Shown here in pieces: positions 2,505 through 37,045 of a stretch of DNA of 47,235 nucleotides. Location of the stretch: contig JAFUIR010000002.1 in the NCBI GenBank assembly GCA_017468395.1, positions 1 through 47,235 of the forward strand, read 5' to 3'. This stretch comes from Lachnospiraceae bacterium. GTDB lineage: Bacteria; Bacillota; Clostridia; Lachnospirales; Lachnospiraceae. The first letter of the stretch is position 1; the number at the start of each line of letters is the position of its first letter. The notes under the pieces are model-generated. The model was not told the origin of the DNA. It saw only the letters and a program-made list of their open reading frames with translations, and ran no database searches. The position numbers and the translations under genes are program-made.

Positions 2505-3689
2505 ATGAATATTTTATTTTACCGTTACGGCAGTATTTGCGAACCGGATGTGCTGGTTGTATTTCAAAAAATGGGGTTTATCGTCCACCAGTGCGATTTA
2601 GAAATTTCACAAAAAAATTTAACTACAGAGCAGCGCCTGAATGCCGTTGCCTCCATTCTTTGTGAACATCCTATCCATTTTGTTTTCAGCATTAATTTTT
2701 ATCCTCTATTGTCCGAAGTATGTGAAAAATTGGGACTGCTCTATGTATGTTGGAGCGTGGATTGCCCGGTATTGGAACTGTTTTCCAACTCGGTCCGCAA
2801 CAGTTGTAACCGTATTTTTCTTTTTGATTACAACCAATATTTAAGCATACACCCGCAAAATCCCGAAAACGTTTTTTATTTACCGCTGGCAACAAATGTC
2901 AACCGTTGGGATGAGGTATTGCAAAATTTAACCGAGAAAGATATTCAAAAATACAGCAGCGATATTTCTTTTGTCGGCTCTCTATACCATGAAAAATCTC
3001 CCCTGTCACTTTTAAAGGACACTTCTCCCCTACCGGATTTTTGGACAGGTTATGTAAACGGACTATGTGAATCCCAAGCAAAGGTTTATGGATATAACTT
3101 CTTGGAAGATGCTATATCTGATGAATTTATCGCAGTATTGAAACAACATTTCCCGAAATTTCTCCGTTTGGAAAACAGTTTTACAGATACAGATTCTTTT
3201 GTGGCGGCAAATTATTATTTAGGCATACGGACTTCCGAACTGGAGCGCATCCGGGTTTTAAATGAATTGGCCACTGCCCACAAAGTCACGCTTTACACCA
3301 GAAGTAACACAAGACTTTTACAAAATGTCGATTGCAGGGAAGGCGTTTCCACCCACACAGAGATGCCCAAAATTTTCCGGTGTAGTAAAATCAATTTGAA
3401 TATTACAATTAAATCTATTCAAAGCGGTCTTTCTTTACGCGTGTGGGATGTATTAGGATGCGGCGGATTCCTGCTCTCCAACTATCAATCGGAGATTCCG
3501 GAGTATCTGGAAATCGGAAAAGACCTAGACTGCTACGAAAGTCTTGCGGATTTAAAACAAAAGGCCGCTTTCTATTTAAAAAACGATGACCTGCGAAACG
3601 AAATTGCCCGAAACGGCTATGACAAAGTAAGGCAATTCCATACCTACGAGGCACGCATCGGCTCTATGCTGAAAACTATTTTTACATAA
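2505..3689 (+). CDS. glycosyltransferase, DUF3880/CgeB-like (possible flagellin glycosylation)
   Basis: A 394-residue cytosolic protein. The ATG at 2505 is preferred over a TTG 15 bases upstream because GGGAG lies eight bases before it. The N-terminal half (VLVVFQKMGF near the start, then WSVDCPVLELFSN and FLFDYNQY around residues 85-115) resembles the DUF3880 domain. The C-terminal third with SLRVWDVLGCGGFLLSNY (about 315-332) matches the sugar-nucleotide-binding region of CgeB-type glycosyltransferases (Glyco_trans_1_2). It is the only plus-strand gene in the flagellar block and lies between two flagellin genes; comparable genes beside flagellins glycosylate the filament in other bacteria. 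Family assignment is solid, the flagellin substrate is inference. Confidence 0.8.
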   Translation: MNILFYRYGSICEPDVLVVFQKMGFIVHQCDLEISQKNLTTEQRLNAVASILCEHPIHFVFSINFYPLLSEVCEKLGLLYVCWSVDCPVLELFSNSVRNSCNRIFLFDYNQYLSIHPQNPENVFYLPLATNVNRWDEVLQNLTEKDIQKYSSDISFVGSLYHEKSPLSLLKDTSPLPDFWTGYVNGLCESQAKVYGYNFLEDAISDEFIAVLKQHFPKFLRLENSFTDTDSFVAANYYLGIRTSELERIRVLNELATAHKVTLYTRSNTRLLQNVDCREGVSTHTEMPKIFRCSKINLNITIKSIQSGLSLRVWDVLGCGGFLLSNYQSEIPEYLEIGKDLDCYESLADLKQKAAFYLKNDDLRNEIARNGYDKVRQFHTYEARIGSMLKTIFT

Positions 3690-4959: not shown

Positions 4960-5436
4960 TTATTTCTTTTGATCCAAAAACTGAGGAGGCATAACATTGG
5001 TGTAACTCATATTGCGGTAATAATTTCTCGCCACTTCCACGGAACGTTTGCCCTGTCCCAGGTTTCTGCGCTCCCGCTTCACACTTTCTTCAATCATCTG
5101 TTTGTTTCTTGCTTCCAGTGCCTGAATTTCCACACTCTTCTCAATAACCATAGAAATCAGAGCCTGACTTTCTTTAATCCAAGCCGCATATTTCTGTTTA
5201 TTGTCTTTCAGTTCCTGCTCCACCCTATCGTAAACAATTTCAAATCCGTCGTCCAATTTCCTCAGTTGCTCGATACAAATGTCCTTATCGTCTACACAGC
5301 GGTCAAATTCCTCAAAGTCAATACTTTCTGCGGTAAGGATATCCTTTTGCATTTTGCTGAGCCTAATGATTTCATCCATAACACTCAGTTTCTTTTTTAG
5401 ACTTTCCGCCAAAATTGTCAGGTATTGTTCACTCAT
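4960..5436 (-). CDS. fliT: FliT-like flagellar export chaperone
   Basis: A 158-residue, almost entirely helical and highly charged protein that overlaps the end of fliS by four bases (ATGA), indicating translational coupling. Helical heptad patterns run through LAESLKKKLSVMDEI and VEIQALEARNKQMIEE. It has the size and position (last gene after fliD and fliS) of FliT/FlgN-type chaperones, which in other flagellar systems hold FliD or hook-associated proteins before export. Sequence identity to characterised FliT is not obvious by eye, so the call depends mainly on length, helical nature and location. Confidence 0.6.
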   Translation of the reverse strand: MSEQYLTILAESLKKKLSVMDEIIRLSKMQKDILTAESIDFEEFDRCVDDKDICIEQLRKLDDGFEIVYDRVEQELKDNKQKYAAWIKESQALISMVIEKSVEIQALEARNKQMIEESVKRERRNLGQGKRSVEVARNYYRNMSYTNVMPPQFLDQKK

Positions 5437-5819
5437 GCGCTTCCCTTCTCCCTGTTTACTTTCATAACTTCTTTCCAGTTGTCTCTGATGGAACGCAAAT
5501 GTTCACATACCTCATTTAAAATTTCCGCATCCTTGCTGATATTAGCCTGAATCAATCTGCCGAACAGATAGGAATACATCCGTTCAAAGTCCTGTGCTAC
5601 CGGATATTTCATATCCAGAGTCAGGCGCAGATGATCGATAATCTTCTCCACCTTCACAATATTGATATGGGCCTTTTCGATTTCTTTCTTCTCGATGGCT
5701 ACGATTGCAATATTGCAGAACTTGATTGCTCCTTCATACAGCATCAAAGTCAATTCTGCAGGGGATGCCGTCAAAATTTTACTGTTATTATATTGAGAAT
5801 ATGCATTAGGCAACGCCAT
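5433..5819 (-). CDS. fliS: flagellin export chaperone FliS
   Basis: A 128-residue four-helix chaperone that binds the C-terminus of flagellin in the cytoplasm and prevents premature polymerisation. Recognisable from the start MALPNAYSQYNNSKILTASP, from ELTLMLYEGAIKFCNIAI (helix 1, about 22-40), and from DFERMYSYLFGRLIQANI. It lies four bases after fliD and overlaps the fliT-like gene, so all three are co-translated. In Bacillus FliS also interacts with FliW, which is encoded upstream in this cluster. No oddities; length is standard. Confidence 0.96.
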   Translation of the reverse strand: MALPNAYSQYNNSKILTASPAELTLMLYEGAIKFCNIAIVAIEKKEIEKAHINIVKVEKIIDHLRLTLDMKYPVAQDFERMYSYLFGRLIQANISKDAEILNEVCEHLRSIRDNWKEVMKVNREKGSA

Positions 5820-5823
5820 TTCA

Positions 5824-7884
5824 TCAGCCTCCTATTAAACTTGTAACCGCATTTGCATTGGACTGCATTTTTGCCATAGCGGTTTCCATGGCAGCAAACT
5901 TACTGTACCACTTATTTTCATAGTCAAGCAGTTTTTCTTCCATTTCTGCGATTTCAGAAGCGTAATCTTTGTAATCGGATTCCATCTTCTTATCTTCATA
6001 CAATGTATAAGAACTGCTATAACCCTGTACCGCCCCCATCAGGCTTGTTGTCTTTTCATACAATTTCTTCGCAAGTTGTGAAAAGAAATCTGTTACCGCA
6101 TTGGGGTCAGAACCGATTTTGGCTTTGAGAGTATTAGTCTCTGTACTTACGTATTCATCGTCCTCATCGCCGTCGATATGATATGCATTTCTCTCATTGT
6201 CCGGTGCATCAAAATAACCAAGTGTCTCGATTCCGAAATCAGACAAATACATTTTCTTTCCGTCCACGGTAAATCCGGAAGACATAATTTCTCTAAACGC
6301 AGAACTTACAGTATTCAAAGTGGAATCTTTGCGAAGCAGGGAATCTTTGATCTTAGTTTCCCACTTTTCAATTTCATTCTCACTCATCTCATATTTTTCA
6401 TCATCTGTAAGAGGCTCATAGTCGTCCGCATCTTCTGCATTATAAAGTTTATCCATCTCGTTGATAAGTTCGCTGTAACCGGTGATAAAGTCTTTAATCA
6501 TATCGTAGACACCGCTGGTATCGTTCTGGGTAGTCAGTGTAACGGTATCATTTCCGGTTTCTGCATTACAGGTAATGGTAAGTCCATTGATTTCAAATGT
6601 ATTGGAAGAACCCGTAAACAATGCATTGTTCAAATAGATTTCCGCATCAATTCCGTCTACCTTGGTTGCACCTACAGAACCTTTCAGCGTAGCCTTATTT
6701 GCAATAACATCAGCCGCTTTTGCAATTTTGGCATCCAACTGTGCTTTCACTTCATCGTTCAGTTTCTGTGTTGCGGTTTTATCATCGGCATCAAAATATG
6801 TTTGTGCATCTGCAAGTGCTGTCTGTGCAGTTTTCAAACCTTTCTGCATTTCCTGATATTTTTCCACAGCAGATACTTTACCCTGAAGTTTTTCCAATTC
6901 CGCCTTCTCTTCATCAGAAGGTTCTTCTATGTCTTTCAGTTCTTCAATGCGGGCTTTCATCTGTGCCAAAGGACTGGTCTCGTCTTCTACATCACTGTTT
7001 ACAAGTGCATCAAAATCATCTGTAGCCGCATCATCTGCATCCACATATTTTTCGTAGTACGCATCTTTTGCAGAAGTCATTTTTTCTTCCAGAGAAGAAA
7101 TGTTTTTGGACAGTTCATCGGCTTTTGCAATATAAGAAGCCAATTTGTTGGCAACTTCGGCATTCAGTGCTGCATTATATGCATCTGTATCACTTTGCAT
7201 ATCAACATATTTCTGATACTTAGCAAAAGTATCGTTATCATATACCAGAATACCTAATTTTTCCAGTGCAGTTGTTCCTGCATCATTAGCCGCTGTGATA
7301 GTAAAGTCAGCAGTAGCACCACTCTCAGTTGCACCGATAAAAAGTCTCTGGGTTTTGCTGTCAAAGTTTGCATTCACTCCGGCTTTTTTCAGTTCACTTG
7401 TAAGTCCTGACAAAGTCATATCAGCAGTAACTTCGATTGCTGTGGTTTTTCCACCGGCGGTCACTTCCAACTTACTTCCGGCCACTACACCCATATCAGT
7501 CAGTTTTGTAGCACCTGTGCACTTTTCTCCGTCAGTTTTTTTCACTTCTGCACCTGTCAAATAACCGGACTGTGCAAGATTTTTTACTCTGAGTGTCTGC
7601 ACGCTGTCCATAGCGTCGCCGGCTGTAATTATGTCACACACACTGCTGTTAGACACTTTGGTTGTCTTTTTCGCATAGGAACTCTGGAAACGGAGATTAC
7701 TCAGGGTACCGTTATAAAATTTTTTCACTTTATTGTTCAGTTCTTTCCAAGCTTCCATTTTCCATTCCAGCTTGGTCTGCTCTTTTACCAGTTTATCAAC
7801 CTTGCTTTGTTTCACATATACAAGTTCCTGAACAATACTTTCTGTATCCATACCTGACATCAGGCCTGATAAACGCATTGCCAT
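5824..7884 (-). CDS. fliD: flagellar hook-associated protein 2 (filament cap) FliD
   Basis: Cap protein under which flagellin monomers fold at the filament tip. The 686 residues begin with RLSGLMSGMDTESIVQELV (family signature) and end with helical LLDYENKWYSKFAAMETAMAKMQSN, the conserved C-terminal D0 segment. It is much longer than the roughly 470-500 residues of Bacillus or Salmonella FliD. The extra length is a coiled-coil-rich insert at about residues 230-400, with heptads such as ELSKNISSLEEKMTSAKDAY and EEKAELEKLQGKVSAVEKY. It lies 11 bases after flaG and four before fliS in the sigma-28 operon. Identity is certain; the role of the insert is unknown. Confidence 0.96.
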   Translation of the reverse strand: MAMRLSGLMSGMDTESIVQELVYVKQSKVDKLVKEQTKLEWKMEAWKELNNKVKKFYNGTLSNLRFQSSYAKKTTKVSNSSVCDIITAGDAMDSVQTLRVKNLAQSGYLTGAEVKKTDGEKCTGATKLTDMGVVAGSKLEVTAGGKTTAIEVTADMTLSGLTSELKKAGVNANFDSKTQRLFIGATESGATADFTITAANDAGTTALEKLGILVYDNDTFAKYQKYVDMQSDTDAYNAALNAEVANKLASYIAKADELSKNISSLEEKMTSAKDAYYEKYVDADDAATDDFDALVNSDVEDETSPLAQMKARIEELKDIEEPSDEEKAELEKLQGKVSAVEKYQEMQKGLKTAQTALADAQTYFDADDKTATQKLNDEVKAQLDAKIAKAADVIANKATLKGSVGATKVDGIDAEIYLNNALFTGSSNTFEINGLTITCNAETGNDTVTLTTQNDTSGVYDMIKDFITGYSELINEMDKLYNAEDADDYEPLTDDEKYEMSENEIEKWETKIKDSLLRKDSTLNTVSSAFREIMSSGFTVDGKKMYLSDFGIETLGYFDAPDNERNAYHIDGDEDDEYVSTETNTLKAKIGSDPNAVTDFFSQLAKKLYEKTTSLMGAVQGYSSSYTLYEDKKMESDYKDYASEIAEMEEKLLDYENKWYSKFAAMETAMAKMQSNANAVTSLIGG

Positions 7885-7895
7885 ATGACATTCTC

Positions 7896-8333
7896 CTATC
7901 TCTTTTCGTCAACCATAATACCTGCCAGTTCCCAAACTTTGCTAATCATGTCCAGCGTCTTTTCGGGGGGAAGTTCTTTAATAACTTCTTTGGTATCTTT
8001 GTCTACAATTTTAATAGTTACACGATTGGTCTCTTCATGAATGCCAAATACTGCAGAAGAGTTGTTCATGTTCTTATTCAACTGCTCCACAGCTTTTTTA
8101 ATCTGCTCGTTGGTTACCTGCTGGTTTGCATTCTGCTGATCCTTTGTCTGGGAATCCGCATCGCCTTTTTGCGTAGCATTTTCTACTATGCTGGTATTCT
8201 TGTCGATTTTAGCACTTTCTGTCACTGCACCATCTGTATATTCTACAGCAGGTTTTGCAGGCTGTACTGCGGGTTTATTCTGCACAGGCTGAGCCTGCAT
8301 GGTCATTACACTTCCTAATGGTTCAATTGTCAT
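7896..8333 (-). CDS. flaG: flagellar protein FlaG
   Basis: About 145 residues starting at the ATG ending 8333, which follows GGAGG by eight bases; the ATG 15 bases upstream would overlap that ribosome site. The C-terminal half (VEQLNKNMNNSSAVFGI...RVTIKIVDKDTKEVIKELPPE) is the FlaG domain, including the conserved I-K-x-P-P-E ending near residue 125. The first half is low-complexity and rich in Gln, Ala and Lys. FlaG proteins affect filament length; the precise mechanism is not settled. First gene of the flaG-fliD-fliS-fliT operon, directly behind a sigma-28 promoter. Confidence 0.9.
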   Translation of the reverse strand: MTIEPLGSVMTMQAQPVQNKPAVQPAKPAVEYTDGAVTESAKIDKNTSIVENATQKGDADSQTKDQQNANQQVTNEQIKKAVEQLNKNMNNSSAVFGIHEETNRVTIKIVDKDTKEVIKELPPEKTLDMISKVWELAGIMVDEKR

Positions 8334-8381
8334 TTCATCCACCTCCATGTGAGAATCGTCATTTTGAGTTTTCTACTCACT

Positions 8382-8409
8382 TTATCGGCAACCTTTTCTA
8401 AAAAGTTTA
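8382..8409 (-). promoter_or_regulatory. sigma-28 promoter of the flaG operon
   Basis: On the minus strand TAAA (8409-8406), a 16-base spacer and perfect GCCGATAA (8389-8382). It lies directly behind the csrA terminator, so the flaG operon is independently started. Confidence 0.8.
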
Positions 8410-8420
8410 TAGTAAAACGC

Positions 8421-8449
8421 AAAAAAACCTGCTGTTATCCCAGCAGGTT
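8421..8449 (-). terminator. terminator overlapping the csrA stop codon
   Basis: On the minus strand AACCTGCTG pairs with CAGCAGGTT, followed by a run of U. The loop GGATAA contains the csrA stop codon TAA, so the left arm of the hairpin is coding sequence. Confidence 0.88.
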
Positions 8450-29983: not shown

Positions 29984-31798
29984 CTACTCCTCTTCCGGAC
30001 TCTTATATCCTTTCACCCCTGTTACAGAGTATACAAATACACCTTTCGATTTACCCTTCAGCGGAATTTCACCCACTTCGTCCACAGTGATGCGCTCCTT
30101 CACCTGCTCGTAAACATACTCACTGATGTACACCGTACCTCCGGGTGCATTTGCCTCCAGACGGGCTGCAGTATTTACCGTGTCACCGATTGCTGTGTAA
30201 TCCATTCTAAAGTCACATCCAATATTTCCAACGACCGCCGGACCACAGTTCACGCCCACACCAAAACCTACATTCTTGCCATACCTATCCAAAAACTCTT
30301 TCTCAATACGCTTACCGCCCTGCACAATATCCCAAGCTGCCAAAATCGCCTTAAAAATATAATCCTCTGTATCAAAGGGCGCATTAAACACTGCCATGGT
30401 TGCATCACCGATAAACTTATCCAAAGTTCCGCCATGACGGAAAATACTTTCTGTAGTAAGTGCCAGATATCCATTCAAAATATCCACTACCTGTTCAGGC
30501 TCAAGACTCTCAGACAAGGGGGTAAATCCACGGATATCCACAAAGAGCACTGCCACATCCCTTTTTTCTCCACCAAGTTTCAATTCGTAAGTACCATTCT
30601 TAGTAATCTCCTCCACAACCTGAGGCGCCACATACTTACTGAAGGCTCTTTCAATACTGCGTTTTGCTGCATTTGCTTTATAATAATGTACTGCTATGTA
30701 ATAAATTCCAATCAGAACAGCCATTACCGGAACCACAAGCACATTGCACGTGTAACCCAGATTAAACAACACAAACTGCACCACCAATTTTGCAACGGCA
30801 GTGGACAGGCACACAATCACGACTTTCACCACGCTGAGCCGCTCACAAATTAGTACCAATGCAATGACCATCACCGCTGCAATCATTCCGTCCACCACCT
30901 TGGAAACATTGGTGAGCGTTTTACCTTCCATCAGTGCCTGAATGGTATTTGCATGGATTTCCACTCCGTACATCTGGGAAGAGCGGTCCACAGGCACAAA
31001 GTATGCATCCATCATGCCCTTTGCATAAGCCCCCACCAAAACAATACAACCGTCAAAAGCCTCCGCAGGAACTGTACCGTTTAACACATCCACCAGCGAA
31101 ATATTCTCATATTCCTCAGGATTTCCGGAGTAACGGAAGGTCATACCACTCTTTTCGGTAGGATATACCGCTTCCTTTCCCATATCCTCCATGTACTTGT
31201 CATAAATTGCAGAACTGAAACTCTTTGTTCTGGTTCCATCCTGCTCATCAAAATAAAGAAGAGAACTGCGGATAATGCCGTCGTCTTCATCCATAAGTGC
31301 ATTTACAAACCCTTGCTCCGTCACTTTGCCAAGGGCCGCATAGGGAAGCACTTTTTCCTGCACAGCCATTCCGTTTACCACCAGGTTACCATTCTCGTCA
31401 GAGGTCACTTCTTTAGTAAACACATAACTAAAGCCCATGACCACATTGCCGTTCTGTTCGCAGACCTTTGCAAATCTCTCATCAGACTTTGCGTCTTTAT
31501 CATTGGTAAACAAAATATCAAAACCTATTACCGCCGGTCTGATTTCTTGCGAAACGCAAAGTTTCTCCACTAAGTCTGCGTACACATCACGGTTCCATGT
31601 GGAAAATTCACCCATCTGGTTCATGGTCCGATCATCAATTTTAATAATTTTTATTTTAGCATCTGTGCTACCGGCGTGATGAAACAACATATCCTCTGCC
31701 GTCTTGTCCACAGTTCCAAATGCCCCTGTATATATTACTATAAATGCCAGCGCGGCACATACAATACAAGTGACACCTCTCTTTAGTATTCCTCTCAT
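29984..31798 (-). CDS. CHASE2-domain class III adenylate cyclase
   Basis: A 604-residue membrane receptor cyclase. One N-terminal membrane segment (about 8-26) is followed by an extracellular CHASE2 sensor (about 30-290), three membrane segments (about 303-370) and a cytosolic class III cyclase domain (about 412-575). Both metal Asp residues (LFVDIRGFTPLSE and LDKFIGDATMAVF), the substrate Lys in DKFIGD, the Asp in YTAIGDTVN and the transition-state Asn and Arg in NTAARLE are present. The Lys/Asp pair points to ATP rather than GTP, so cAMP should be made. The ribosome site is weak. First gene of the operon ending with plsC. The signal sensed by CHASE2 is unknown. Confidence 0.9.
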   Translation of the reverse strand: MRGILKRGVTCIVCAALAFIVIYTGAFGTVDKTAEDMLFHHAGSTDAKIKIIKIDDRTMNQMGEFSTWNRDVYADLVEKLCVSQEIRPAVIGFDILFTNDKDAKSDERFAKVCEQNGNVVMGFSYVFTKEVTSDENGNLVVNGMAVQEKVLPYAALGKVTEQGFVNALMDEDDGIIRSSLLYFDEQDGTRTKSFSSAIYDKYMEDMGKEAVYPTEKSGMTFRYSGNPEEYENISLVDVLNGTVPAEAFDGCIVLVGAYAKGMMDAYFVPVDRSSQMYGVEIHANTIQALMEGKTLTNVSKVVDGMIAAVMVIALVLICERLSVVKVVIVCLSTAVAKLVVQFVLFNLGYTCNVLVVPVMAVLIGIYYIAVHYYKANAAKRSIERAFSKYVAPQVVEEITKNGTYELKLGGEKRDVAVLFVDIRGFTPLSESLEPEQVVDILNGYLALTTESIFRHGGTLDKFIGDATMAVFNAPFDTEDYIFKAILAAWDIVQGGKRIEKEFLDRYGKNVGFGVGVNCGPAVVGNIGCDFRMDYTAIGDTVNTAARLEANAPGGTVYISEYVYEQVKERITVDEVGEIPLKGKSKGVFVYSVTGVKGYKSPEEE

Positions 31799-31910: not shown

Positions 31911-33740
31911 TCATTCCACCGTTACCGACTTCGCCAGATTTCTTGGCTGGTCTACGTCCAATCCTCTGTAGGAGGAAGTATAATACGCCAAAAGTTGCAA
32001 AATAACAGCCGCTGTAAAAGGCGCAAACACATCATGGCTTGCCGGAATTACCAGATGTTCATCGCAGATACCGTTTTCAACCACTGCCTCATTTCCTTCC
32101 TTGGTAATCAGAATAACCATAGCTCCTCTTGCCCGCACTTCTTTTACATTGGAAATCATCTTGGAAAATACATCGCTCTGGGTTGCCAGTGCAATCACAG
32201 GTACCCCTCCGGTTACAAGGGACAGTGTACCGTGCTTTAACTCACCTGCCGCATAAGCCTCGGAGTGAATATAGGTAATTTCCTTTAACTTAATGGAACC
32301 TTCACAGGACAGCGCATAATCCAGACTTCTGCCGATAAAGAACAAATCCTGGGCAGGAGTCAGGCGCTTGCTGAGTTCCTTCATCCGGTCTTTCTGCTCC
32401 AGCATCTTTTCCATCAGTTCTCCCACTTCATTCAAGCCTTGCATATAGCCAGACACTTCCTTGGCAGTCAGTTTCCCTACCGCATAGGCAAAGCGGAATG
32501 TCAACAGATAAAAGGCAGTCAGTTGAGCCGTATAGGCCTTGGTGCTGGCCACCGCAATCTCCGGTCCCGCATGGGTATATAGTACATAATCCGATTCCCT
32601 TGCAATGGAGGAACCTTTTACATTGACAACAGAAAGGGTTTTGGCTCCTTTCTCCTTGGCCAGACGAAGGGCTGCCAGTGTATCCGCTGTCTCACCGGAC
32701 TGGGAAACCAGTATTACCAGCGACTTTTCATTCAAAATCGGTTCCCCATAACGAAACTCCGAGGCAATCTCCACGCTCACGGGAATACGCAGCAGCCTCT
32801 CAAGCAAAATTCTGCCCATCATTCCTGCATGCATTGCCGTACCGCAGGCCGTTATGACAATGCGTCCCACATTCAAGAACAATTCATCCTCAATCCCGTC
32901 CTCCGAAAAATCCGGCAAAATATACTCGCCTTTCTTCATGCGCGGCGCAAGGGTTCTTCGGATTGACTCCGGCTGCTCATGGATTTCTTTCAGCATGTAA
33001 TGCTTAAATCCGTTCTTTTGGGCAGCAGACATATCCCAGTTAATGCTTAACATTACCGGGCTGACCTCCATGCCTTCCAAATCTGTTACCAAAATAGCAT
33101 TTTTTGTAACCTTTGCCACCTGATGCTCCGGCAGAACAAAATATTCTTTGGAATAACGCAGCAGTGCCACCATATCGGAAGCCACGGCGCACCCTTCCTC
33201 CGAACTGCAGCATACCAACGGACTGCCCTTACGGATACAGTAAATCTCATCCTTCCGGTCGGCAAACATAATACAGAACGCATAGGCGCCTTCCAGCCGT
33301 TCCACCGTGCCTCTCAGTGCCTCCAAGGCATCGCCTTTATACAAAGAATCAAGTAACATGACCGCAACTTCCGTATCCGTCTGGGACAGCGGGGTTCTTC
33401 CTGTTTTTTCCAACTCCTTTGCCAGTTCGTGATAATTCTCTATGATACCGTTATGAATTAAAGTCACATTCCCGCACCGGTGTGGATGGGCATTGACCTC
33501 AGAAACGCCCCCATGGGTCGCCCATCTGGTATGTCCGATACCGCAGCCGGATTCCATTTGGGGCGGCAATTTATTTTCCAGCCCCGCAACCTTACCCACA
33601 GATTTAACCACCTCAATGCCACGGTCTGTAAAACAGGCGATACCGGCACTGTCATAACCGCGGTACTCCAATTCCGCCAAACCTTTTATCAATTCCTCTT
33701 TTGCATTCAGATAACCACAAAAACCTATAATTCCACACAT
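31911..33740 (-). CDS. glmS: glutamine-fructose-6-phosphate aminotransferase GlmS
   Basis: A 609-residue enzyme making glucosamine-6-phosphate from fructose-6-phosphate and glutamine, the entry to peptidoglycan amino sugars. The N-terminal nucleophile Cys is in MCGIIGFCGY; glutaminase motifs HTRWATHGG and HNGIIENY follow. Two SIS sugar-isomerase domains hold ITACGTAMHAG (about 295), LVSQSGETADTLAALR (about 345) and the C-terminal DVDQPRNLAKSVTVE. Length is standard. It follows nagB with a terminator between. No glmS ribozyme core is visible in the 120-base leader, so feedback must act differently here. Confidence 0.97.
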   Translation of the reverse strand: MCGIIGFCGYLNAKEELIKGLAELEYRGYDSAGIACFTDRGIEVVKSVGKVAGLENKLPPQMESGCGIGHTRWATHGGVSEVNAHPHRCGNVTLIHNGIIENYHELAKELEKTGRTPLSQTDTEVAVMLLDSLYKGDALEALRGTVERLEGAYAFCIMFADRKDEIYCIRKGSPLVCCSSEEGCAVASDMVALLRYSKEYFVLPEHQVAKVTKNAILVTDLEGMEVSPVMLSINWDMSAAQKNGFKHYMLKEIHEQPESIRRTLAPRMKKGEYILPDFSEDGIEDELFLNVGRIVITACGTAMHAGMMGRILLERLLRIPVSVEIASEFRYGEPILNEKSLVILVSQSGETADTLAALRLAKEKGAKTLSVVNVKGSSIARESDYVLYTHAGPEIAVASTKAYTAQLTAFYLLTFRFAYAVGKLTAKEVSGYMQGLNEVGELMEKMLEQKDRMKELSKRLTPAQDLFFIGRSLDYALSCEGSIKLKEITYIHSEAYAAGELKHGTLSLVTGGVPVIALATQSDVFSKMISNVKEVRARGAMVILITKEGNEAVVENGICDEHLVIPASHDVFAPFTAAVILQLLAYYTSSYRGLDVDQPRNLAKSVTVE

Positions 33741-33859: not shown

Positions 33860-34570
33860 TTAGTTTTCACTGTAAATTACTGTCAAATCAGGATGCAACT
33901 GCAAGATAGAAGCCGGAACTGCAGGAGTAATGGGACCAAAGAAAGCCTTCTCCACAATTTCCTTTTTATTCTTGCCGTTAGCGATTAAGAGTACCTTCTT
34001 TGCGCTCATGATGCCGCCCATACCCATAGTAACTGCTTTTCTGGGCACATCTGCTTCAGATGCAAAGAAACGTGCATTTGCTTCAATGGTAGAGGGGTCA
34101 AGGTCAACCACATGGGTAGCCTTTTCAAAATAAGTATCAGGCTCATTGAAACCGATATGACCGTCAAGACCGATACCGAGAAGTTGCAGGTCGATACCGC
34201 CGGACTGTTCAATCAAGGCATCGTATGCCTCACATTCCTTCTGAAGGTCTGCTGCACAACCATTGGGAACATTTGTCTTAGTTACATCAATATTAATCTT
34301 TGTAAACAAGTTTGTGTTCATAAAGTAACGGTAACTCTGGTCGTTGTTTCCGTCCAGACCAACATACTCATCCAAGTTGATGGAAGAAACCTTAGAAAAA
34401 TCAACCTCGCCGTTTGCACACTTTTCTACAATCTTTGCATAAGTGCCAAGGGGAGAGGAGCCTGTTGCCAAGCCAAGTACACTGTTAGGCTTTAATACTA
34501 CCTGAGCGCAAATCATTGCTGCTGCCTTGCTGCTGAGTTCATCATAATTGTTCACAGTAATAAAATTCAT
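33860..34570 (-). CDS. nagB: glucosamine-6-phosphate deaminase NagB
   Basis: A 236-residue cytosolic enzyme converting glucosamine-6-phosphate to fructose-6-phosphate and ammonia. Motifs: LGLATGSSPLGTYAKIV (phosphate loop, about 33-49), SSINLDEYVGLDGNNDQSYRY (catalytic Asp region, about 61-81), and LLGIGLDGHIGFNEPDT (catalytic Asp/His, about 130-146). The length is that of the short Firmicute form without the allosteric C-terminus of E. coli NagB. A good AAGGAG precedes the ATG. It catalyses the reverse of GlmS, whose gene lies next to it. Confidence 0.97.
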   Translation of the reverse strand: MNFITVNNYDELSSKAAAMICAQVVLKPNSVLGLATGSSPLGTYAKIVEKCANGEVDFSKVSSINLDEYVGLDGNNDQSYRYFMNTNLFTKINIDVTKTNVPNGCAADLQKECEAYDALIEQSGGIDLQLLGIGLDGHIGFNEPDTYFEKATHVVDLDPSTIEANARFFASEADVPRKAVTMGMGGIMSAKKVLLIANGKNKKEIVEKAFFGPITPAVPASILQLHPDLTVIYSEN

Positions 34571-34655: not shown

Positions 34656-35318
34656 TTACACTCTCTCCACTACCGTTTTGGTATCCTTTACAATGCAGTT
34701 TGCGGGATATACACCGCGAAGAGCCGTCAAAGGATATACGGAAGTGTTTTTGCCGATAACGGTACCCGGATTAATTACACTGCCGCAGCCCACATCTGCG
34801 CCATCTGCCAAGATACCACCAATTTTTCTAAGCCCTGTCTCATAATCCACATCTCCGTGAATCACTACCGCTTTTCCATCGGATTTTAAGTTGGAGCAAA
34901 TAGTACCGGCACCGGTATGCGCTTTATTACCCAAAACAGAATCTCCTATATAGTTGTAATGGGGAATCTGCACTTTATCAAGCAATACGCAATTTTTCAG
35001 TTCGGAAGAATTGCCGAGCACACAATTTTCTCCGGTAATCACGCTGCCGCGGATAAAGGCACCGGGACGCACTTCTGTACCGGAACCGATAATAGCAGGC
35101 GCCTCAATGGTGGCAGTAGGATAAATTTTTACATTCTCTCCCACCAAAACACCTTCTGCAATCAAAGTATATCCGGGAATCCCCTTTTCAATCAACTCCA
35201 AAATATAGTTCTTAATCTTGGGAAGCATTTCCCATGGATATTCGCTTTCCTCAAACAAAGATACCAGATATTCCGGCTGGGAAGCATAAAGTTCTTTTGT
35301 CTTTACTGATTTATTCAA
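34656..35318 (-). CDS. left-handed beta-helix acyltransferase, GlmU C-domain-like
   Basis: A 220-residue hexapeptide-repeat protein starting at a TTG eight bases after GGAGG; this overlaps the glmM stop by eight bases. Hexapeptide turns fill residues 50-210 (VLVGENVKIYPTATIEAPAI, IRGSVITGENCVLGNSSELK). The segment HYNYIGDSVLGNKAHTGAGT with LKSDGK resembles the acetyltransferase site of GlmU, where GlcN-1-P is acetylated by acetyl-CoA. The pyrophosphorylase half of GlmU is absent. Position directly after the GlmM gene supports acetylation of glucosamine-1-phosphate as its job. It could also serve a separate nucleotide-sugar pathway. Confidence 0.78.
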   Translation of the reverse strand: MNKSVKTKELYASQPEYLVSLFEESEYPWEMLPKIKNYILELIEKGIPGYTLIAEGVLVGENVKIYPTATIEAPAIIGSGTEVRPGAFIRGSVITGENCVLGNSSELKNCVLLDKVQIPHYNYIGDSVLGNKAHTGAGTICSNLKSDGKAVVIHGDVDYETGLRKIGGILADGADVGCGSVINPGTVIGKNTSVYPLTALRGVYPANCIVKDTKTVVERV

Positions 35319-36933
35319 CGCAGTGTCCTCCTTCAACAATTGCCTTTACAATCTTTTCCACATATTCCACACACTTTTCCTGTGTTTCGCTTTCCACCAT
35401 CACACGGATAACGGACTCCGTACCGCTTTGCCTAAGAAGAGCCCTACCCTTTTTGTTAATAAGTTTTTCCACTTCATCCTTGGCCTTAAGCACATTGGCA
35501 TCGGTCGCCACCGCCGCCTTATCCTTCACCCGTACATTTTGCTGGTACTGAGGATAAAATTTAATAGGCTCCACCAGTTTGGCAAGAGACATTTTGGAAT
35601 CACAAATTTCCTCTGCAAGCATGATGGCTGTCAAAATACCGTCGCCGGTAGTTGCGTATTTTTTCATAATAATGTGACCGGTCTGTTCTCCGCCGATAGC
35701 ATAATTATTACTTTGCATACACTCATATACAAAGCGGTCTCCCACCGTTGTCTGGACACACTTAATCCCGGCTTCCTCCAAACTTGCCACAAAACCGCTG
35801 TTAGACATAACCGTAGTTACTACTGTATCATCATTTAAAGTGCCTCGCATCTTCATGCGCTTCCCGAGAATGTAAATCATTGCATCCCCGTCCACCTCAT
35901 TACCATTCTCATCCACAGCAATACAACGGTCCGCATCGCCGTCAAAGGCAAAACCAAGGTCCAAATGCTTTTCCCGTACCAGTTTCTTTAACTTTTCAAC
36001 ATGGGTGGAACCACATTCTTCATTGACATTCAGTCCGTCCGGCTCATCGCCAATCACATAAATCTGGGCGCCCAGTGCACTAAAAACCGCTCCTGCAATA
36101 TTCCACGAAGCACCGTTGGCACAGTCCAAACCTATTTTTAACTTTTTGTATGAATTAGATGCCAGCGAAATCAGGTAACCGATGTAACGGTTTCTACCGG
36201 CAGAATAATCGTGAATGCAGCCGATTCTGGATTTTTGTGCCAGAGGCAAATCATCTCCCGTCACTCCCAGCATCTTTAAATCACCATCGATATATGCCTC
36301 AATCAAAGCAGTGGTGTCATCATCAAATTTTTCACCGTAAGCATTGATAATCTTAATTCCGTTGTCATAGTAGGGATTGTGGGAAGCCGTAATCATAATA
36401 CCACAGTCAAATTCATCCTTGCGTGTCACATAAGACACCCCCGGCGTGGTAATGACGTGAAGCATATAGGCATCCGCGCCGCTTGCGGTAATTCCTGCCA
36501 CAATGGAATACTCCAGCATATAACTGGAACGTCTGGTGTCCTTACCGATAACAATACGGGGACGGTAACCGGGCTTGGTACAGCCGGAAAGTTTGGACGC
36601 ATAATACCAGCCAAGGAAGCGCCCTACCCGGTATGCCTGCATGGAAGTCAAGGTTACATTTGCCTCCCCGCGGAAACCATCCGTACCAAAATACTTATTT
36701 GTTCTCGGCTCATTGGCCGCCCTGCGGTTAATTTCTATTTTATCAAGCAAAAGTTCATCTGTAGATACACTGAAAATTTCTGCAAGTTGTATTACTTTGT
36801 CAATCTGCGGAAGTGCCTGATCCATCTCCCACTTGGAAACGGATTGTCTGGAAACGCCAAGAGTTTCTGCCAACTGCTCTTGCGAAATATCGGCGGCATT
36901 TCTCAACTGTATGATTTTCTGGCCGATTGTCAT
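35311..36933 (-). CDS. glmM: XRE-type helix-turn-helix fused to phosphoglucosamine mutase GlmM
   Basis: A 540-residue two-part protein; the ATG ending at 36933 is chosen because GGAG lies seven bases before it. Residues 2-62 form a Cro/C1-type HTH (ISQEQLAETLGVSRQSVSKW is the recognition unit). From about residue 78 it is a full GlmM: TDGFRGEAN, the phosphoserine loop GIMITASHNPYYDNG (about 178), the metal loop FAFDGDADRCIAV (about 330), the sugar loop GGEQTGH and the phosphate loop LRQSGTESVIRVM. The fusion is in frame without any stop and the junction is short. It catalyses GlcN-6-P to GlcN-1-P; the HTH suggests direct control of transcription, perhaps its own operon. Confidence 0.92.
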   Translation of the reverse strand: MTIGQKIIQLRNAADISQEQLAETLGVSRQSVSKWEMDQALPQIDKVIQLAEIFSVSTDELLLDKIEINRRAANEPRTNKYFGTDGFRGEANVTLTSMQAYRVGRFLGWYYASKLSGCTKPGYRPRIVIGKDTRRSSYMLEYSIVAGITASGADAYMLHVITTPGVSYVTRKDEFDCGIMITASHNPYYDNGIKIINAYGEKFDDDTTALIEAYIDGDLKMLGVTGDDLPLAQKSRIGCIHDYSAGRNRYIGYLISLASNSYKKLKIGLDCANGASWNIAGAVFSALGAQIYVIGDEPDGLNVNEECGSTHVEKLKKLVREKHLDLGFAFDGDADRCIAVDENGNEVDGDAMIYILGKRMKMRGTLNDDTVVTTVMSNSGFVASLEEAGIKCVQTTVGDRFVYECMQSNNYAIGGEQTGHIIMKKYATTGDGILTAIMLAEEICDSKMSLAKLVEPIKFYPQYQQNVRVKDKAAVATDANVLKAKDEVEKLINKKGRALLRQSGTESVIRVMVESETQEKCVEYVEKIVKAIVEGGHCVE

Positions 36934-36979
36934 GTGCATTCTCCTTTATTTTATTTTGCACTACTCTTTTATGTGCCTT

Positions 36980-37045
36980 ATTATAACAACATATTCATTC
37001 CCTTTCAAGCAACTTTCACCCTCTTTTTTAGCAACTTATGGTTGC
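36980..37045 (-). promoter_or_regulatory. promoter and possible XRE operator before the HTH-glmM gene
   Basis: On the minus strand TTGAAA (37008-37003), 17 bases, TATAAT (36985-36980). Upstream lies the palindrome GCAACCATAAGTTGC (37045-37031), and a further AAGTTGC half-site abuts the -35. These repeated half-sites are candidate binding sites for the HTH of the gene product. Confidence 0.6.

Follow-up and report, generated by a model that had tools for sequence, protein, structure and literature searches.

A phosphoglucosamine mutase fused to a helix-turn-helix domain: a probable repressor of its own hexosamine operon in Lachnospiraceae and Bacilli

The supply of UDP-GlcNAc is essential and tightly controlled, and the known devices for this control are the glmS ribozyme, the GlmY/GlmZ-RapZ system and regulators of the NagC/NagR type. 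NagC and Mlc, members of the ROK group, are DNA-binding regulators of amino-sugar genes. Catalytic enzymes which also regulate their own pathway at the DNA are known as well (NadR, PutA, BirA). NagR likewise regulates amino-sugar genes; it shares with NagC/Mlc the difference from the protein presented here that none of them is GlmM or another enzyme of the biosynthetic route. NadR, PutA and BirA differ from our protein in that their enzymes, DNA-binding parts and pathways are unrelated to it, and the glmS ribozyme (RF00234) performs the same hexosamine-phosphate feedback that we propose below, but it is made of RNA. BzdR, which controls benzoate degradation, consists of an XRE domain, a linker and a shikimate-kinase-like, metabolite-sensing domain which has lost catalysis; its authors built chimeras modelling the ancestor of this regulator, and one of these, Q1, was called a bifunctional regulator (PMC3602430). 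A literature search restricted to titles and the openings of abstracts, with subscription journals mostly outside its reach, found neither an HTH-GlmM fusion nor a GlmM acting as a regulator described.

We have analysed a stretch of 47,235 nucleotides (the window) from the genome of a Lachnospiraceae bacterium (GCA_017468395.1, contig JAFUIR010000002.1). A preliminary description of this DNA had placed at 35311..36933 a complete XRE-type domain joined in frame to a complete GlmM with all four active-site loops, and this was confirmed (Table 1). The uninterrupted minus-strand ORF covers 35311-36939, and its second ATG, at 36933, is the preferred start on account of the spacing of the ribosome-binding site and the start in relatives. 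Pfam HTH_3 was found at residues 9-63 (55.1 bits against a cut-off of 23), the PGM_PMM domains I, II, III and IV were all above the Pfam cut-off within residues 82-532, and the NCBIfam model for GlmM, TIGR01455, scored 495.7 bits (cut-off 447.55). The loops read TASHNP, DGDADR, GGEQTG and RQSGTE (serine, metal, sugar and phosphate loop, respectively). In the AlphaFold model (mean pLDDT 90.4) a five-helix HTH domain and a full GlmM are folded. Its best Foldseek matches are GlmM structures, and no HTH-GlmM protein appears in the descriptions among the best 50 matches listed; the best PDB sequence matches span only about residues 80-534, and the closest PDB structures by fold and sequence are those of GlmM (7OJR, 6GYZ, 3PDK). 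The fusion thus has the same four-domain fold and catalytic loops as GlmM, from which it differs by the added N-terminal XRE domain and by its place on a branch separate from the cdaA-linked copies. With BzdR it shares an XRE domain linked to an enzyme-derived domain; however, its C-terminal part is PGM_PMM I-IV and not shikimate-kinase-like, and it looks like an intact GlmM, resembling in this the bifunctional chimera built in that study (PMC3602430). An error of sequencing or assembly at the junction, an objection raised in advance, could be ruled out, since other assemblies have the same in-frame junction at 55-93% identity, and 77 parsed loci, from dozens of gut bacteria, carry the same fusion.

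Table 1. Features of the fusion locus (positions in the window) and of the unfused operon in locus L174 (positions in that locus)
Feature	Position	Strand	Basis
HTH-GlmM fusion protein, 540 aa	35311..36933	-	ORF, ribosome-binding site, Pfam, NCBIfam, relatives, structure model
XRE helix-turn-helix domain, residues 1-62	36748..36933	-	Pfam HTH_3; five predicted helices
Recognition helix RQSVSKWE, residues 29-36	36826..36849	-	conservation and model
Linker, residues 63-79	36697..36747	-	residues 65-78 modelled as disordered (AlphaFold, pLDDT <50)
GlmM domains I-IV and stop codon, four loops intact	35311..36696	-	Pfam, NCBIfam, alignment, Foldseek
Predicted operator palindrome GCAAC-N5-GTTGC, GCAACCATAAGTTGC	37031..37045	.	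conserved, spacing-exact
Third half-site GTTGC	37009..37013	-	17 bases from the palindrome, abuts the -35 box
Promoter TTGAAA-N17-TATAAT	36980..37008	-	consensus match
Left-handed beta-helix acyltransferase, GlmU C-terminal-like, putative GlcN-1-P acetyltransferase	34656..35318	-	family search
nagB, glucosamine-6-phosphate deaminase	33860..34570	-	TIGR00502, 262.3 bits (cut-off 236.9)
glmS	31911..33740	-	NCBIfam; sole glmS found in the window's genome
L174, acetyltransferase of the unfused operon	5553-6209		
L174, nagB of the unfused operon	6291-7082		
L174, unfused glmM	7085-8431		

The gene order proposed for the operon, HTH-glmM, acyltransferase, nagB and glmS, was borne out by the ORFs, Pfam and NCBIfam. 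The start of the acyltransferase gene was picked by eye from its ribosome-binding site (the mechanical ORF starts at 35339), and with this start the gene overlaps the 3' end of the fusion gene. Its product is the best GlmU-family match of the genome, within the acetyltransferase half of that family; no GlmU in the window's genome reaches the family cut-off, therefore the uridylyltransferase is probably a separate protein. The genome is 92.7% complete, so that absences in it are provisional. A second, unfused glmM, 40% identical, stands after cdaA-like and cdaR-like genes (assigned by eye; DGA and RHR motifs). Despite this paralogue the operon is central to hexosamine synthesis, since the only glmS found and the best GlmU-family match both lie in it. 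After glmS, on the same strand, there is a CHASE2-adenylate/guanylate cyclase gene (window 29984-31798, Pfam), and a cyclase 71% identical to it lies downstream of the operon in L018.

A search for XRE-GlmM architectures placed the fusion in a few Lachnospiraceae and in one order of Bacilli. The scan of genome contigs, which covered 80 of the 92 confirmed loci, gave at least 22 full fusions: at least 13 labelled Lachnospiraceae (85-93% identity) and at least nine labelled Bacilli, Bacillales or Erysipelotrichaceae (59-61%); the other 58 of those 80 loci match only from about the start of GlmM. Against a model of the junction, 56 of the 397 genomes in the window's family gave a match, and three of these, in three genera, matched across the junction; 66 of the 279 genomes in the order of G062, one of the Bacilli-labelled genomes (Bacilli with small genomes), did so, and in a sample of 398 genomes from the window's phylum only the window's genome matched. 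The 77 parsed loci (the window, 22 fusions from the scan and 54 fetched loci; 14 Lachnospiraceae and 63 Bacilli) are all fused, L288 being cut by the contig end. In a quick, midpoint-rooted tree of the GlmM parts (97 rows, without 22 rows of Lactobacillus type) the 23 fusions included fall into a single group (SH-aLRT 99). Next to it, on the same branch, stand 17 unfused relatives, and the cdaA-linked GlmM copies are placed elsewhere. The scattered occurrence within Lachnospiraceae is suggestive of horizontal transfer. The acyltransferase gene comes after the fusion in 75 of the 77 loci (exceptions L282 and L288), and nagB was found in 68, in eight of them divergently; in these Bacilli loci (L023-L029, L265) one intergenic stretch may control both nagB and the fusion.

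All 76 fusion rows which cover the four loops retain their core residues; the proline following the catalytic TASHN varies (present in 61/77). No GlmM other than the fusion was found in nine of nine Bacilli genomes (E up to 1e-50) and in 53 of 54 further ones (E up to 1e-30), all of them metagenome-assembled genomes of which the completeness is not given; in the exception, G568, the fusion is divided between contigs and one unfused GlmM copy is present. In the Bacilli carriers the fusion is probably a working phosphoglucosamine mutase, to judge from these 62 of 63 genomes in which no other GlmM was found. In Lachnospiraceae a second GlmM is present in 11 of 13 carriers, the window's genome excluded. 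It had been stated beforehand that a canonical glmM elsewhere, together with an inactive fusion, would speak against the idea: the unfused copy does exist, but the active-site residues of the fusion are intact and the Bacilli carriers argue against inactivity. That the fusion is a pure regulator without catalysis, in the manner of BzdR with its shikimate-kinase domain, is hardly credible: it could appeal to the unfused glmM in the cdaA-like operon of the window's genome, but the invariant loop cores, the TIGR01455 score above the cut-off and the Bacilli genomes with no other GlmM found are all against it. Three fusion carriers (L171, L172, L173) have a second, unfused GlmM of the same branch beside trigger factor-, clpP-, clpX- and lon-like genes (named by eye), an unusual place for glmM.

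The GCAAC/GTTGC repeats which had been noticed at the promoter of the fusion are real, and they consist of a palindrome and a further half-site at the -35 box. The palindrome GCAA-N7-TTGC was found within 300 bases upstream of 37 of the 77 fusions: in 14/14 Lachnospiraceae (shuffle mean 0.20) and in 23/63 Bacilli (shuffle mean 0.45; 200 dinucleotide shuffles in both cases), and the spacer of 7 stands out among palindrome spacings. Among controls it precedes 1 of 17 close unfused relatives (L150), 0 of 79 other GlmMs and 1 of 420 other mechanically called ORFs of the same loci. Shuffles and control genes together rule out that the repeats are there by chance. The claim of a direct control of the operon by the fusion is upheld to the extent that a predicted operator is conserved at its own promoter in the numbers given.

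All 14 Lachnospiraceae fusions have the layout GCAAC-N5-GTTGC-N17-GTTGC-TTGNAA-N17-TATAAT, with the third half-site, kept in 14/14, abutting the -35 box at 22 bases, about two helical turns, from the palindrome half. The layout is intact also in L011, where some 155 additional bases, whose repeated ends look like hairpins, separate the -10 box from the start codon (upstream of 5004). All 23 exact sites of the Bacilli lie at most 45 bases before the start codon. With one mismatch or none allowed, the last 45 bases match in 33 of the 63 Bacilli loci (300 composition shuffles gave a mean of 0.58 and never more than 4 loci) and do not match in 30; an exact site within 140 bases occurs in 12 of 21 clusters formed at 80% GlmM identity. 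A symmetric variant, GTAA-N7-TTAC, is present in two loci (L239, L260), and in the loci with RQSLSKWEN or RQSMSKWEN helices (e.g. L256, L257, L259, L262, L263, L266-L274) the stretch examined contains no exact site.

These positions bear on the direction of the control. Binding would most likely repress the operon, since the -35 box of the Lachnospiraceae has the palindrome and the third half-site close against it, and the palindrome of the Bacilli stands immediately ahead of the start codon. The Lachnospiraceae palindrome, upstream of -35, is in a place which activators also use, so the HTH might instead make the enzyme an activator of its own operon; the 23 exact Bacilli sites are, however, in a typical repressor place, and we regard activation as unlikely. 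Still less probable, and indeed very doubtful, is that the Bacilli repeat acts in the mRNA, as a hairpin near the ribosome-binding site, and is no operator in the DNA. In favour of this are its place immediately ahead of the start codon and its two arms, which could pair (judged without a computed fold), but the Lachnospiraceae copy is 5' of the -35 box and so is not transcribed from that promoter, and the palindrome also precedes XRE-like genes.

On the protein side, the recognition-helix residues R29, Q30, W35 and E36 are present in 77/77 fusions. Between Lachnospiraceae and Bacilli the identity is 81% in residues 27-37, 56% in the HTH domain, 28% (mean) in the linker and 63% in GlmM. The palindrome resembles the 434 repressor site, ACAA-N6-TTGT, where Gln stands at the place of Arg in the helix of the fusion; a literature search on this likeness found nothing.

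Further copies of the palindrome connect it with a wider group of regulators. In the window's genome GCAAC-N5-GTTGC occurs at four places, and its reversed form, used as a control, does not occur. Two of the four copies fall within ORFs, one is at the fusion promoter, and the fourth abuts the -35-like box of an XRE-like gene with the helix TRQAVSRWE. In 36 other carriers it was found 95 times, own-promoter sites included, against 28 times for the reversed control. We have judged the genes at 43 further sites (40 regions, among the matches listed) by eye from the ORF starts, a selection which leaves out, for example, the sites of G050: 19 are inside ORFs and 24 are intergenic, and 13 of the 24 intergenic sites, among the matches listed, stand before XRE-like genes whose recognition helix is of the [ST]RQ type. 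The site precedes a stand-alone XRE-like gene with such a helix in L164 (at 3599-3613), L320, L329, L331, L332, L333, L340, L342, L344, L349, L350, L353, L356 and L358. A wide hexosamine regulon under this palindrome was not seen among the 43 sites (among the matches listed). The 13 of 24 intergenic sites indicate that the palindrome is likely the general operator of this large XRE class with the [ST]RQ helix.

This sharing is at the same time the main support for a different reading, namely that the operator is real but is read by another XRE regulator, the fused HTH being a relic or a weak competitor: stand-alone XRE-like genes with a like helix do follow the palindrome, one of them in the window's genome. 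Against this, conservation between the two classes is higher in the recognition helix than in the remainder of the HTH, the palindrome goes with fused and not with unfused genes, and a relic would hardly be expected to persist in frame through 77 loci. We consider another reader quite improbable. As the palindrome is conserved, exact in its spacing, largely specific to fusions and shared with promoters of like-helix XRE genes, the fusion itself very probably binds its own promoter, as far as sequence comparison can tell.

The preliminary description had also taken the absence of a glmS ribozyme as fitting an alternative feedback control. The absence was borne out in the window, where all Rfam families, the glmS ribozyme among them, stay below their gathering scores. 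In 80 genomes, searched with strict filters by which weak matches can be lost, RF00234 was found in two, both of the same genus and without the fusion (2/24); it was found in none of the 14 Lachnospiraceae carriers (the window's genome included), none of the 22 Bacilli carriers and none of the 20 genomes sampled from those members of the Bacilli order which lack a fusion match. The absence by itself says little, since the ribozyme is missing also in 22 of the 24 same-genus genomes without the fusion; as an argument it was therefore set aside. What does speak for an alternative feedback is the position of the two matches, directly before an unfused acetyltransferase-nagB-glmM operon: in L174 at 5357-5506 (G018:C80:49356-49505; 66.6 bits), 46 bases before the acetyltransferase gene, and in the second genome at G011:C9:109206-109356. 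From these two genomes the control seems to have been swapped between a ribozyme and a fused HTH. No glmS was seen in either ribozyme-led operon, thus nagB may run there in the synthetic direction, or the whole operon may be under GlcN-6-P feedback. As a sensor of GlcN-6-P precedes the same set of genes, GlcN-6-P would be the first candidate effector of the fusion.

Taken together, we infer that the fusion is likely a bifunctional trigger enzyme which represses its own hexosamine operon, catalysis, DNA binding, repression and effector all being part of this proposal. The GlmM part would convert GlcN-6-P to GlcN-1-P, in the making of a cell-wall building block. GlmM of B. subtilis dimerises via domain 1 (PMC8573169). 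A homodimer of the fusion formed in the same way, at the site of the N-terminus, would bring the two tethered XRE domains together, so that they could grip one palindrome, GCAA-N7-TTGC, at the promoter of their own operon of glmM, acetyltransferase and nagB, with or without glmS. DNA binding would probably be tuned by substrate occupancy or by the phosphorylation state of the mutase, and in this way the hexosamine-phosphate pool could feed back on its own synthesis, the job of the glmS ribozyme in the two relatives. The model is directly testable, since promoter, operator and protein are defined.

A broader proposal, which in our opinion is evenly balanced, is that the fusions are an ancient family passed on horizontally. 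In it the mutase itself, in nearly all Bacilli carriers checked the sole GlmM found, would both repress the hexosamine operon and sense the metabolite. It would thereby take the place of the glmS ribozyme as a protein device, and it would be a natural intermediate between enzyme and regulator which retains catalysis, a stage made synthetically for BzdR. The finding also points to one operator shared by a large class of XRE proteins. If the model is true, a mutase reading its own promoter would be a new solution to the control of UDP-GlcNAc, and it would be a natural case of an enzyme caught in becoming a regulator.
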